Shown here: piece by piece, positions 3,597 to 34,784 of the stretch
Position numbering within the stretch: position 1 is the first letter of the stretch
Layout of the letters: the number at the start of each line of letters is the position of its first letter
Source: a virus
Length of the DNA: 34,784 nucleotides
Virus record (IMG/VR): IMGVR_UViG_3300046007_015485
Coordinates: 1 to 34,784 of that record
Direction: 5' to 3' (one strand)
Notes under the pieces: generated by a model
The model's input: the letters and a program-made list of their open reading frames with translations, nothing else
Told to the model about the DNA's origin: nothing
Database searches by the model: none
Translations under genes and position numbers: made by a program

Positions 3597-4090
3597 ACTT
3601 CTTCTACTTTTATTATGTAACACTTTTTTTTCATTGTTAAGTCTGGAATAATATGCACTCCAGCACAAAACTTCTTATTATCATTAATAATTATTCCTTC
3701 TTCTTGTAACATATCCTCAACCAATTTAATCATCGTGATACAGTTACTTGGATCTAGTCTTGAATTATACGTCAGAGTTATGATATAGTTACAAATTTTC
3801 TCGTTACTTATCAACATACTCTTAAAAAATTCGTGCCACTCGTGTTTATGTTTGTTTCTAACCGTCCAGTGAGGAGTCGAGTACCAAGCATTTAAACTAA
3901 TATCTTTCCCAGCCCAACGAAACACATAAACTTTCTTATTTGCATCAAATTCTCCAACGACATCAGTTGCTATTTTAGGTTTTTTGATTACCTTAGCCTT
4001 TTGCTTTACACTTTTTTGTTTCGAATAAGATCCATCCTTATCCATAACCAACCCCATCACCTTTAATTGACCTTCGGTAAACCTTGTCAT
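3593..4090 (-). CDS. RusA-like Holliday-junction resolvase (probable)
   Basis: A 165-residue protein. The C-terminal ~105 residues follow the RusA layout: LNAWYSTPHWTVRNKHKHEW (substrate entry), a central strand, then RLDPSN (Asp113), IKLVEDML (Asp126) and IIINDNKK (Asp137). This spacing of acidic residues in D-P-x-N, E-D-x-L and N-D is typical of RusA metal ligands. Residues 1-45 are a Lys-rich extension. RusA enzymes cut four-way junctions, and in phages they act in recombination or before packaging. It overlaps both neighbours by 4 bp (ATGA). The family call is from motifs only. Confidence 0.6.
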   Translation of the reverse strand: MTRFTEGQLKVMGLVMDKDGSYSKQKSVKQKAKVIKKPKIATDVVGEFDANKKVYVFRWAGKDISLNAWYSTPHWTVRNKHKHEWHEFFKSMLISNEKICNYIITLTYNSRLDPSNCITMIKLVEDMLQEEGIIINDNKKFCAGVHIIPDLTMKKKCYIIKVEEV

Positions 4091-4954: not shown

Positions 4955-5218
4955 TTATTTTGCTCTACCTAAAAAGTACTCTACCGAGATTGGAATCTCT
5001 TTGAATACCTTCCAGATTTCTTCTTCTGTTTTATCGGACTCAACGTAAACAAGATACTCTATTGCGCCAAATTTATAGAAAACGACTTCATCCTCTATAA
5101 TTCGAGTTATTTTAAATTCTCGACCTTGTCCTACCTCTTGTCCAACAGTAAATGCCAATCCTTGCATCGGATCAGCACCTAAAATAATCTTTCTTATAAT
5201 TCCTTTTTCTAAACTCAC
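4955..5218 (-). CDS. Conserved phage hypothetical protein, 87 aa
   Basis: Starts at GTG within TAGTG, so it is coupled to the upstream stop. The text EKGIIRKIILGADPMQGLAFTVGQEV followed by short strands looks like a conserved protein of Bacteroidota phages of unknown function. The C-terminal half is acidic with aromatic residues (EEIWKVFKEIPISVEYFLG). Nothing catalytic is visible. Confidence 0.7.
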   Translation of the reverse strand: MSLEKGIIRKIILGADPMQGLAFTVGQEVGQGREFKITRIIEDEVVFYKFGAIEYLVYVESDKTEEEIWKVFKEIPISVEYFLGRAK

Positions 5219-5550
5219 TATTTCTTTTTCTTACGTCTTGTCATCTTCATTTCAGCCATCTGTGCTGTTTGGTCTCCTTCGGCTCCTTGGTAAGAAGAAC
5301 GCTTTTGACCAGTTGCAGTCATTTCGTATGATGGTTTTACAACTCCAGGCTCACTATCCAAATCACGAACATTCATGTGCGCGCCTTGACGTTTAATTTC
5401 TGGAGTAGGAGTAGGATCACTTTTACCTAAATCAAACTTAATCTTTCTGTTAGACGAAGTAGACTTAGTTTTAAAATTAGGACAAGCATCAACTTTCTTT
5501 CCTTTTTTGCCTTTTTTCGGTTTAGGCTCGTCAATATTACACAGTTCCAT
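5218..5550 (-). CDS. Basic, probably disordered protein heading the chaperonin operon
   Basis: 110 residues from ATG 5550 (MELCNIDEPKPKKGKKGKK); the frame can be extended to a TTG, but the ATG is preferred. It is rich in Lys, Pro, Ser and Thr, has no hydrophobic core and ends RRKKKK, suggesting a disordered nucleic-acid-binding or scaffold-like protein. It is the first gene behind the promoter at 5567-5574, with a leader of only about 10 nt. Confidence 0.7.
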   Translation of the reverse strand: MELCNIDEPKPKKGKKGKKVDACPNFKTKSTSSNRKIKFDLGKSDPTPTPEIKRQGAHMNVRDLDSEPGVVKPSYEMTATGQKRSSYQGAEGDQTAQMAEMKMTRRKKKK

Positions 5551-5566
5551 GTTCAAATATTTTTGT

Positions 5567-5574
5567 CAAAGATA
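5567..5574 (-). promoter_or_regulatory. -7 element TATCTTTG of the chaperonin operon
   Basis: Matches TAnnTTTG and lies 17 bp upstream of the ATG at 5550. It should drive the whole leftward operon to 641. No palindromic operator and no TGTAAC box is present here, unlike at other promoters of the window. Confidence 0.6.
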
Positions 5575-8656: not shown

Positions 8657-9358
8657 ATGGGATTATCAACAACAGGTGGGAATGACTCACAAAAGAACTA
8701 CTTAAACATTTTAGGTGGAAAGATTACACAACGTGTAAAAGAAGGAACAGAAGGTGCTGTTTCTCGTATTAACAAACAAAACAAAGAAGTTTGGGAGCTA
8801 CACTTCGACACGTTAAGTGGACGAATCGTGGATTTTAACTTAGAGGAATCTGATTACGGAAAAGTTTGGGTTGTTACTATTCAAAGTGGTATCGATTACT
8901 ACTACTTACATTTACAACAATCAGGTCGTATCACAAACGGATTAATGCACCGATTGCCTAACATCGATTTGTCGAAAGAAATCGTTATTAAAACTTTCCG
9001 CATCTTCAATGAAGACAAACAACGCGACCAAGATTATTTGGTAGTTTACCAAGGCGGAACCGCTAAGTCGAATAAAATCGAAGGGCATTATACTAAAAAA
9101 GGTCCTGATGGTAAAGTTCAGAATATAAACGGACTTCCTGAAATGGTTCAAATAAAGGTTAAAGGGAATCTTGTTTGGGATGACTCGGCTCAAATCGAAT
9201 TTATCACTAACATGGTTCTAAACGAAGTGAAACCTAAGTTGAATGGTGACGCTCCTAAAGCGGAGTATAAAGAGCCTTCGATTAAAGATGTTGCTGCTGC
9301 TAAAAACGCTGCTAAGGCGCAAGTTGCTGATCCAGAATTGGATGACTTACCCTTCTGA
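8657..9358 (+). CDS. SSB-like single-stranded DNA-binding protein
   Basis: 233 residues. The body is beta-rich with many aromatic residues (VWELHFDTLSGRIVDFNL, SGIDYYYLHLQQSG). It is followed by a flexible Ala/Lys-rich linker and an acidic tip, PELDDLPF. That tip is the hallmark of SSB proteins (DDDIPF in E. coli), which use it to recruit replication and repair enzymes. The N-terminal body does not show an OB-fold sequence I can prove by eye. The position just upstream of a RecF/SMC-like ATPase fits. Call rests mainly on the C-terminal tip and context. Confidence 0.65.
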   Translation: MGLSTTGGNDSQKNYLNILGGKITQRVKEGTEGAVSRINKQNKEVWELHFDTLSGRIVDFNLEESDYGKVWVVTIQSGIDYYYLHLQQSGRITNGLMHRLPNIDLSKEIVIKTFRIFNEDKQRDQDYLVVYQGGTAKSNKIEGHYTKKGPDGKVQNINGLPEMVQIKVKGNLVWDDSAQIEFITNMVLNEVKPKLNGDAPKAEYKEPSIKDVAAAKNAAKAQVADPELDDLPF

Positions 9359-20373: not shown

Positions 20374-20381
20374 CAAAGATA
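20374..20381 (-). promoter_or_regulatory. -7 element TATCTTTG of the portal gene
   Basis: Matches TAnnTTTG, 20 bp upstream of ATG 20353. As at 606-613, the position of the -33 box is taken by the palindrome (20390-20408). Confidence 0.65.
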
Positions 20382-20389
20382 ATAAATTT

Positions 20390-20408
20390 ATTTAGAATCA
20401 TTCTAAAT
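20390..20408. promoter_or_regulatory. Palindromic operator, copy 3
   Basis: Perfect 8-bp arms, ATTTAGAA-TCA-TTCTAAAT. It lies between the leftward portal promoter and the rightward DnaA-operon promoter, so one bound protein could control both. Its centre (20399) is 20 bp upstream of the TTTG at 20419, identical to copy 2. Confidence 0.7.
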
Positions 20409-20418
20409 TAAGGTTCTT

Positions 20419-28856: not shown

Positions 28857-28957
28857 TCGGTAGGGCAGCACTCGAACCTGCACGATATTAAAATCATAAA
28901 CACTCAGTTTGGTTTTATCCAAAAGGATCACGCGTCTACCAATTCCGCCACCTACCG
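28857..28957 (-). tRNA. tRNA-Leu-like gene with abnormal anticodon arm
   Basis: Acceptor stem CGGTAGG/CCTACCG pairs perfectly (28957-28951 with 28864-28858). TGGCGGAATTGGTAGACGC is a textbook tRNA-Leu D arm, and CAGGTTCGAGTGCTG is a T arm, with one G-G mismatch (position 53/61) where C61 became G. A class II variable region is present. Between D arm and variable arm no standard 5-bp/7-nt anticodon hairpin can be drawn; the best is TTTGG/CCAAA with a 6-nt ATAAAA loop. The total of 101 nt is ~15 too long. CCA is not encoded. Either a non-decoding tRNA remnant or a modified tRNA; decoding identity cannot be given. Confidence 0.6.
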
Positions 28958-30210: not shown

Positions 30211-30537
30211 ATGCGTAAACACACTGATAAAGGCAAGAGAGGTTTTGTTTCAACTAGAAAGAATAAGGTATTCACTCATCTAATGGAGAAGCACAACATA
30301 AGCCTATACACGTTATCACTACGTTTCAACCTCTCTGAGCAAATGACATTAAAGCTAATTAATGATGTAATGACCTTACGAATGAAACATATAGTTATCA
30401 TGGCTGGTTTATTCAATATTAAGGCTTCTGTATTGTTTCAACTTCTCTACTGTAATTACACAACTATTCCTCCTCACATAGAAAAGGAAATAGAAGAGGA
30501 TGTTTTATCTCTCTCTAAAGAAATAGGTCTTATTTAG
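30211..30537 (+). CDS. HTH (XRE/Cro-like) regulator candidate
   Basis: 108 residues with a very basic start (MRKHTDKGKRGFVSTRKNKV). Then FTHLMEKHNISLYTLSLRFNLSEQMTLKLINDVMTLRMKHIVIMAGLFNI gives the five-helix spacing of a Cro/CI-type DNA-binding domain (helices 2-3 around LYTLSLRFNLSEQMTLKLIN). As the first gene of the rightward accessory operon, next to the long control region, it is the best visible candidate to bind the palindromic operator. No family match could be tested. Confidence 0.6.
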   Translation: MRKHTDKGKRGFVSTRKNKVFTHLMEKHNISLYTLSLRFNLSEQMTLKLINDVMTLRMKHIVIMAGLFNIKASVLFQLLYCNYTTIPPHIEKEIEEDVLSLSKEIGLI

Positions 30538-30627
30538 AATCTGTTTAAATTACTATATTTACTTACTTTGGCATGGTTTTATTTTATGTTACTCTGTATA
30601 GGTAGAGTTTAAATAGTTTTATTATTT

Positions 30628-30684
30628 AGGCAAATTATTATACCTCATTTTCAATGAGTTACAATAATTTTTGCCTTTTTTTTC
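30628..30684 (+). terminator. Rho-independent terminator after the HTH gene
   Basis: AGGCAAATTATT pairs with AATAATTTTTGCCT, with an inner CTCATT-TTC-AATGAG hairpin, followed by eight T. It isolates the HTH gene from the operon behind it. Confidence 0.75.
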
Positions 30685-30691
30685 ATTTTAT

Positions 30692-30719
30692 TGTAACCTT
30701 ATTAATCCGTTACCGTTAA
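30692..30719 (+). promoter_or_regulatory. ECF-like promoter TGTAAC-N16-CGTTAA (distal)
   Basis: Directly after the terminator. TGTAAC (30692-30697), 16 bp, CGTTAAAC. First of two tandem sites upstream of the lipoprotein gene. Confidence 0.55.
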
Positions 30720-30776
30720 ACATACCAACAAACAATAATTAGTTCTTTTAAATAAATAAAAAATATTTTAAATAAA

Positions 30777-30804
30777 CGTAACCTTTACAAATAACTAACG
30801 TATA
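30777..30804 (+). promoter_or_regulatory. ECF-like promoter CGTAAC-N16-CGTATA (proximal)
   Basis: CGTAAC (30777-30782), 16 bp, CGTATAAC. It is 21 bp before ATG 30826. Tandem with the site 85 bp upstream. Confidence 0.55.
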
Positions 30805-30825
30805 ACCTAACAAAACCTAGAAATC

Positions 30826-31032
30826 ATGAGAAATTCAAAAAAAATTTATTTAATTTATTCACTTTTATTATCTGTTGTTTTTTTTAGCTGCAAAGAAACT
30901 GCTAATTATGGAATACAAACATTAGAGCATGAAGGATGTGAATATGTTATTTATAAGGATGACACAAGAAGTGATGTATCAATGGTACACAAGCAAAATT
31001 GTAAATATTGTGAAGAAAGAAATAAAAAGTAG
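30826..31032 (+). CDS. Small lipoprotein
   Basis: 68 residues: MRNSKKIYLIYSLLLSVVFF then SCK, a lipoprotein signal with lipobox-like FFSC (Cys22 becomes the lipid-bearing residue). The mature part has EHEGCEYVIYKDD and MVHKQNCKYC, whose Cys may form disulfides. Phage lipoproteins can block receptors or injection against superinfection. Here that is only inference from the signal and early position. Leader CTAGAAATCATG is shared with later genes. Confidence 0.7.
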   Translation: MRNSKKIYLIYSLLLSVVFFSCKETANYGIQTLEHEGCEYVIYKDDTRSDVSMVHKQNCKYCEERNKK

Positions 31033-33963: not shown

Positions 33964-34101
33964 ATGTACCAAGCTATTTTTAACCTACTTGTTGTTGTTA
34001 GTCTTATTCTCTCCCTTTTAGTTGGAGTAGTAGTATTTGTTTTCTTCCCTTTCTATATTGGAAGATTGTTCTTTGAAGAGTTTAAGAAAGTTAGTAAGTA
34101 A
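33964..34101 (+). CDS. Small membrane protein, 45 aa
   Basis: MYQAIFNLLVVVSLILSLLV then GVVVFVFFPFYIGRLFF: one long or two short membrane helices with a charged end (EEFKKVSK). It starts 5 bp after the previous stop. Its own stop lies in the inverted repeat at 34099. Confidence 0.55.
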   Translation: MYQAIFNLLVVVSLILSLLVGVVVFVFFPFYIGRLFFEEFKKVSK

Positions 34102-34140
34102 TTATTTGCAATAATTCTTGCGATTTATTGCAAATAATTA
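34099..34140. terminator. 16-bp perfect inverted repeat
   Basis: TAATTATTTGCAATAA / TTATTGCAAATAATTA with a 10-nt loop. It begins within the stop codon of the small membrane protein. Probably ends the accessory operon, though no T-run follows; it could also be an operator upstream of the small RNA promoter. Confidence 0.6.
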
Positions 34141-34162
34141 GCTTTACTATTTGAAAATTTAC

Positions 34163-34170
34163 TATATTTG
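34163..34170 (+). promoter_or_regulatory. -7 element TATATTTG of the small RNA
   Basis: Matches TAnnTTTG; predicted start near 34177. No reading frame follows, supporting a non-coding transcript. Confidence 0.55.
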
Positions 34171-34176
34171 TGTGCT

Positions 34177-34285
34177 GTATTGTCAGAGATACACTTCGCA
34201 AAAGGAAACTAAGATAGAAATATCTTTTTCATAAAGAAAATGCTGAATTGTGCCTCTGACCACAAACATCAGCATTTTTCTTTTA
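34177..34285 (+). ncRNA. Small structured RNA with possible pseudoknot and terminator
   Basis: About 109 nt between a TAnnTTTG promoter and a terminator. Seen: hairpin AAGATA-GAAA-TATCTT (34211-34226) with GNRA loop; terminator stem AAAATGCTGA/TCAGCATTTT (34237-34246 with 34269-34278), then T-rich TTCTTTT; inside it a second stem TTGTG/CACAA (34248-34252 with 34261-34265). The 8-nt apical loop CCTCTGAC is complementary over 7 nt to GTCAGAG at 34182-34188, so a pseudoknot can form. No reading frame, and resemblance to no RNA class I know. Likely a regulatory sRNA; the C-rich loop may also pair with targets. Confidence 0.65.
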
Positions 34286-34377
34286 TGTAAATTTCAAATC
34301 ACCAATTAAGGAACGCAATAGCCTTTTAAGAACCGCAAACTTTTGTAGCAATACATTTGGATCAGATAAATGTGCTT

Positions 34378-34488
34378 ATGAAACAAAACATAGGCGGATT
34401 GTTTGATTTTCTGGGGGACTTTTCTTTTTCTTTCTTACTTACAATTGTTTGTAGTTGTTACTTTCCTTCTTTCTTTTTCTTTAAATGA
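34378..34488 (+). CDS. Tiny membrane protein candidate, 36 aa
   Basis: MKQNIGGLFDFLGDFSFSFL then LTIVCSCYFPSFFFFK. Preceded by TACATTTG at 34352-34359 (TAnnTTTG) with a short leader. Extremely Phe-rich. It may be real, but the evidence is only the promoter and the open frame. Confidence 0.4.
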   Translation: MKQNIGGLFDFLGDFSFSFLLTIVCSCYFPSFFFFK

Positions 34489-34572
34489 TATAAAGGGAGT
34501 TGAAACAATAGATTAGTAGTAGGGGCTTTTGTGTATAAAAATTAGTAAATAGTTAAAATAAGTAACCAATAA

Positions 34573-34600
34573 TGTAACCTTACATGGGAAATAACGTAAA
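34573..34600 (+). promoter_or_regulatory. ECF-like promoter TGTAAC-N16-CGTAAA overlapping a start codon
   Basis: TGTAAC (34573-34578), 16 bp, CGTAAA (34595-34600). The ATG of the last gene is inside the spacer, which conflicts with this promoter serving that ATG. Confidence 0.45.
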
Positions 34601-34784
34601 AATATTCGTTCTTACTTGGGTATTTGGAACTAGAGTAGTTGAAATAAAACGCTCTCCTTCTATTCAGGTGATACAACTAAAAAAGAAGGAGTTGAAAAAC
34701 CAGCCTCAATACAAGAAAGGATTTTTTGAGGTTAGAACCTCTGAAGGATTAAAAGCTAAACCGATATTAAAAGAAATAAACTAA
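34584..34784 (+). CDS. Hypothetical protein, 66 aa
   Basis: MGNNVKIFVLTWVFGTRVVE then KKKELKNQPQYKKGFFEVRT. Compact and basic, with plausible amphipathic strands, ending at TAA on the last base of the window. The only ATG lies between -35 and -10 of an ECF-like promoter. So the mRNA must start further upstream, or a non-ATG start is used. Family unknown. Confidence 0.55.
   Translation: MGNNVKIFVLTWVFGTRVVEIKRSPSIQVIQLKKKELKNQPQYKKGFFEVRTSEGLKAKPILKEIN

Follow-up and report, generated by a model that had tools for sequence, protein, structure and literature searches.

Setting of the locus in the phage genome

The window analysed here is a complete virus record of 34,784 bases (IMGVR_UViG_3300046007_015485). 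The locus sits within a plus-strand gene block and occupies the gap that separates a 45-aa ORF (33964-34101) from a 66-aa ORF (34584-34784), both on the plus strand. The 45-aa ORF is short and hydrophobic and is followed by an A+T-rich perfect palindrome with no assigned strand (34099-34140; 16-bp TAATTATTTGCAATAA/TTATTGCAAATAATTA), possibly a weak terminator or an operator. In the downstream flank, a second -7 box, TACATTTG (34352-34359, plus strand), precedes a hydrophobic 36-aa plus-strand ORF (34378-34488; MKQNIGGLFDFLGDFSFSFLLTIVCSCYFPSFFFFK), which like the 45-aa ORF is unassigned. A first-pass annotation of this DNA had described 34163-34285 as a transcription unit holding no gene, and we likewise found no ORF of at least 40 aa on either strand; small ORFs lie near, the 45-aa ORF ending at 34101 and the 36-aa ORF starting at 34378.

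A second IMG/VR contig, IMGVR_UViG_3300046011_006106 (33,384 bases), represents the same phage: it is identical to the window over the compared part, 34182-34784, and continues past the window end to window-frame position 46,680. The portal protein, encoded in the window, and the terminase, encoded in the overlapping contig, are 25-37% identical to proteins of Flavobacterium elemo phages, Maribacter phage Panino, and an environmental podovirus, and because of this relatedness the host is probably a flavobacterium. After the identical phage, the closest relatives of the portal protein are only 46-48% identical, and the terminase has no relatives in genome_contigs.

The promoter element of the locus is an exact TATATTTG box on the plus strand (34163-34170), which matches the Bacteroidota -7 motif TAnnTTTG, with consensus and spacing taken from published work (PMC9723704, PMC7366714). 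Since the -7 box of flavobacteria occupies positions -12 to -5 relative to the transcription start (PMC9723704), the RNA should start at about 34174-34177; the box stands 5 nt ahead of the first hairpin, H1, and the expected start 1-2 nt before it. From this spacing and the terminator, we predict a plus-strand small RNA of approximately 105 nt at 34174-34284, with a start accurate to 2 nt either way and an end within the T tract. The RNA had previously been drawn from 34163, but 34163-34170 is the -7 box and lies outside the predicted transcript, which runs from approximately 34174/34175 to approximately 34284. Four of the six copies of TATATTTG are intergenic, in a window of which 11% is intergenic DNA, and TAnnTTTG occurs 13 times in intergenic DNA where composition predicts 5.9, an enrichment of only about twofold. 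There is no TTTG at -33 distance, the nearest (34150-34153) being 9 bp away; in F. johnsoniae, too, attempts to identify the -33 element failed (PMC7366714). The proposed promoter and terminator unit is present as a -7 box and a terminator-like hairpin, H3, and lacks a -33 box.

Predicted fold, loop-loop pairing, and chance expectation

The predicted RNA contains three plus-strand hairpins. H1 (34176-34193) is a weak 5' hairpin with a 5-bp stem, TGTAT/ATACA (34176-34180/34189-34193), and an 8-nt loop, TGTCAGAG (34181-34188). H2 (34205-34230) has the 6-bp stem AAGATA/TATCTT (34211-34216/34221-34226), a GAAA loop (34217-34220), and a lower stem GAAA/TTTC. H3 (34233-34284) is a strong two-tier terminator hairpin: its outer stem pairs AAAATGCTGA (34237-34246) with TCAGCATTTT (34269-34278) and is extended by 34233-34236/34280-34283, and its inner stem (34248-34252/34261-34265) carries an 8-nt loop, CCTCTGAC (34253-34260); the T-rich tail is TTTTTCTTTT (34275-34284). 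The helices listed in the first-pass annotation are all exact, namely the 10-bp outer arms, the TTGTG/CACAA inner stem, and the 6-bp tetraloop hairpin at 34211-34226; the GNRA loop is also real and caps a separate hairpin, H2. Flanking A and T tracts make H3 terminator-like on both strands, and it was not listed by a simple terminator scan. Other two-tier, terminator-like hairpins with T tracts are present both in this phage, within the gap 30538-30928, and in further phages (L027). The gap 30538-30928 (391 bp, after the gene at 30211-30537) holds a two-tier hairpin followed by eight T, a clear terminator-like element built like H3.

The loops of H1 and H3 are complementary at seven of their eight bases, GTCAGAG (34182-34188, plus strand) within the H1 loop matching CTCTGAC (34254-34260, plus strand) within the H3 loop. 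The 7-nt complementarity between the apical loop and the 5' region noted earlier is therefore exact. Its reading as a pseudoknot between loop and 5' end needs revision; the 5' segment is not free and sits in the H1 loop, and because both segments lie in 8-nt hairpin loops a loop-loop kiss of 7 bp is the better depiction of the contact. A search for repeats identified a competing long-range helix on the plus strand, in which 34182-34197 pairs with 34245-34260 through 14 of 16 possible pairs, including one G-U. With no tertiary penalty counted, the kiss state sums to approximately -24 kcal/mol (H1 -0.9, H3 -14.2, 7-bp duplex -9.2), and the long-helix state comes to about -21 to -22 kcal/mol (duplex -17.9, outer 8 bp -3.7). 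The two would thus be of similar estimated stability, in rough sums that omit pseudoknot entropy and do not settle which of them prevails.

Against dinucleotide shuffles, the whole region (MFE -31.9) has a z score of -3.8, and by hairpin the scores are -5.4 for H3, -2.2 for H2, and -0.6 for H1; only H3 clearly outfolds the shuffles, and H1 alone is at chance level. The earlier argument that the nested complementarity exceeds chance is weakened by these results: the region as a whole and H3 fold better than shuffles, but H1 does not, and two-tier terminators are found elsewhere. Of the dinucleotide shuffles, 0.8% had a 7-nt complement of the H3 loop within 70 nt upstream, and 0.035% had one in the loop of a hairpin whose stem was at least 5 bp long. 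The pairing of 34174-34236 with 34245-34262 (-17.2 kcal/mol) was equalled in 0.24% of shuffles and 0.25% of windows from the phage itself. These frequencies are suggestive, because the tests were designed post hoc and the phage has more than 12 sizeable intergenic gaps. Nor is the 7-nt loop pairing unique, since scanning both strands of the window revealed one further 7-nt loop-loop match, at 224, and loop matches of 6 nt are common. A scan of 1.3 Mb of related phage DNA gave 196 loop-loop candidates, of which just two, this locus and one in L006, combine a -7 box, a 7-nt match, and a terminator-like second hairpin. What is unusual about the pairing is its position between a promoter box and a terminator.

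The sole other copy of the locus found is that of the identical phage in another assembly. Searches of viral_contigs with an exact 28-mer, the paired-loop pattern, a 17-mer from the linker, and an open-loop H3 pattern returned only the identical phage as a true match, and the exact H3 pattern detected no homologue in genome_contigs. No diverged homologue was recovered by blastn against phages and plasmids, by blastn and a covariance model on the relatives' records, or by a protein-level search. The covariance model reaches little beyond blastn because it was built from two identical sequences, and the lack of matches does not show that the RNA is restricted to this phage. Other pattern matches lacked the rest of the RNA and mostly resembled coding sequence, and a match in W03 (39463-39555; 16 bits, E 0.07) spans the 3' end of a structural gene and was provisionally taken as chance. 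The fast Rfam search gave no match above the gathering threshold for the window, and a permissive search of 34090-34400 gave only chance-level, mostly microRNA matches. With an identical copy as the only homologue found, there are no sequence changes in which covariation could show, and what we say of fold and function is therefore drawn from the sequence itself.

Candidate function and competing explanations

We tentatively favor, at close to an even chance, the reading of 34174-34284 as an orphan small RNA of a Flavobacterium-type podovirus, whose ends would be tied by the kiss or the long helix and for which a trans-acting role is likeliest. The host primary Bacteroidota sigma factor would transcribe it from the TATATTTG box, and the transcript would end at the intrinsic terminator H3. 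The RNA would adopt the three hairpins, with seven H1-loop bases paired to seven terminator-loop bases or the 16-nt helix taking their place, and the tying of the 5' end to the 3' terminator is predicted to give a closed shape that resists decay. It would probably serve as a trans-acting regulatory RNA in infected cells; on opening of the tie, the strands of the two loops, or else the unpaired linker CUUCGCAAAAGGAAACUA, might, speculatively, provide the contact surface. A more specific version, in which the terminator loop is a tertiary element kissing the 5' loop and a hidden seed is freed only when a partner opens the kiss, seems unlikely.

The first-pass proposal of a regulatory phage sRNA agrees with the -7 box, the length of approximately 105 nt, and the terminator-like hairpin; a diverged homologue and a convincing target were not found. 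When duplexes were predicted with the start regions of 89 phage genes, no target rose above genome background. The H1 loop pairs at 12 of 12 positions with approximately 5563-5574 on the minus strand, near the gene at 5218-5550 (-14.4 kcal/mol, 1% of shuffles), a candidate not adopted because equal energies occur elsewhere in the genome. A whole-RNA duplex scan of the genome was dominated by self-matches and was not used. A CRISPR-repeat mimic and a pRNA-like packaging RNA were considered and set aside; Rfam gave no such match for either, and the phage has a terminase with relatives among known large terminases.

Of the readings left, a stand-alone sRNA acting in trans is the best, and it would stand at about even odds with a terminator bearing chance complementarity taken together with minor rivals. 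In that terminator explanation, which is quite possible though clearly short of an even chance, there is no separate RNA: H3 is a possibly bidirectional terminator of the upstream plus-strand operon ending at 34101, H1 and H2 arose by chance, and the 7-nt match came about by coincidence, in a gap of 480 bp that is rich in A+T. The two-tier T-tract hairpins at 30538-30928 and in L027, the chance-level z score of H1 (-0.6), the commonness of 6-nt loop matches with another 7-nt match at 224, and the A-tract and T-tract flanks that make H3 terminator-like on both strands all fit it. It does not account for the exact TATATTTG box 5 nt ahead of H1 or for the rarity of the joint loop-in-hairpin match (0.035% of shuffles), and the upstream operon has its own palindrome at 34099-34140.

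A 5' leader, in which premature termination at H3 controls the downstream plus-strand operon (from 34378 or 34584 to 40683), appears rather improbable. The locus does head a co-directional gene block with no further TATATTTG box before 34584, and pairing between its 5' segment and part of H3 is possible. However, the competing helix takes in the inner stem and just 2 bp of the outer terminator stem, most of which is left intact, so it would be a poor antiterminator; the second -7 box at 34352 could serve the downstream genes, and the first sizeable gene is 300 nt away. It is highly improbable that the RNA forms a type I toxin-antitoxin pair with a flanking peptide (45 aa, 33964-34101, or 36 aa, 34378-34488). 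Both neighboring peptides are short and hydrophobic, but small membrane peptides are common in phages, the RNA has the same orientation as the peptides and does not overlap them, and it has no notable complementarity to the 34378 start region. Extended complementarity was sought where the 34378 and 33964 ORFs start and was not seen, and neither start region was among the best duplexes.

As a small RNA, the candidate can be compared with several known systems. Hairpin loops of approximately 7 nt that pair with each other are known from ColE1 RNA I/RNA II and the purine riboswitches; in the candidate, by contrast, both loops belong to one RNA and one is a terminator loop, and we identified neither a ligand core nor an antisense partner strand. 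For Bacteroidota hosts, it is established that intergenic sRNAs can have a start site together with an intrinsic terminator (PMC7366714), a flavobacterial ncRNA repertoire has been described (PMC9723704), and many members are strain-specific (PMC7366714, PMC9723704). Like GibS and other sRNAs of B. thetaiotaomicron (PMC7366714) and the F. psychrophilum ncRNAs (PMC9723704), the candidate is small and intergenic, with a TAnnTTTG-type box at the correct spacing from its predicted start and, in H3 (z -5.4, T tract), a 3' intrinsic terminator. Unlike the candidate, which is known only from sequence, GibS and the F. psychrophilum sRNAs are chromosomal and transcript-proven, and GibS has a long single-stranded 5' region (PMC7366714) where the 5' end of the candidate is predicted to be tied up. 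Among trans-acting sRNAs encoded by phages and prophages, the Pas sRNAs of E. coli prophages are likewise small non-coding transcription units and are described as base-pairing sRNAs of E. coli mobile elements (PMC13192938), whereas the candidate is a prediction. Narrow literature searches found no sRNAs of Bacteroidota-infecting phages, which appear little described. If transcribed, this RNA, as yet a single candidate without relatives, would offer a compact system for testing the double use of a terminator loop as a tertiary contact.

Other elements in this and other phages

Rfam RF00005 identified a tRNA at 28857-28957 on the minus strand in a permissive search (31.9 bits, above the gathering score of 29); it has a leucine-like 5' half, GGUGGCGGAAUUGGUAGACGCG, and was missed by ARAGORN and by the fast Rfam search. 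The palindrome TTATTTAGAATCRTTCTAAAT is common to 618-640 and 20388-20410, directly upstream of minus-strand -7 boxes at 606-613 and 20374-20381, and is a candidate operator for a phage regulator. L027 contains two similar short units, at approximately 3658-3820 and at 8691-8800, with related outer stems (ATCAACA/TGTTGAT or shorter) and GCTAAAG-type inner arms; one stands behind a TATTTTTG box, and the two are possibly paralogous small RNAs or terminators.

Past the window end, the same phage (L001) carries repeated large hairpins in the gaps 37134-37243, 37457-37608, 37969-38136, 38479-38650, and 39247-39397 (window frame), with an element at 38850. The units are bounded by TATAACGkTTTGC-like and GCTGTTATAG-like ends and mostly hold one small ORF each. 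No integrase was seen. The arrangement, in a phage of Flavobacterium type, looks like an integron-type cassette array with attC-like sites; phages with integrons and attC sites have already been reported (PMC9892861).
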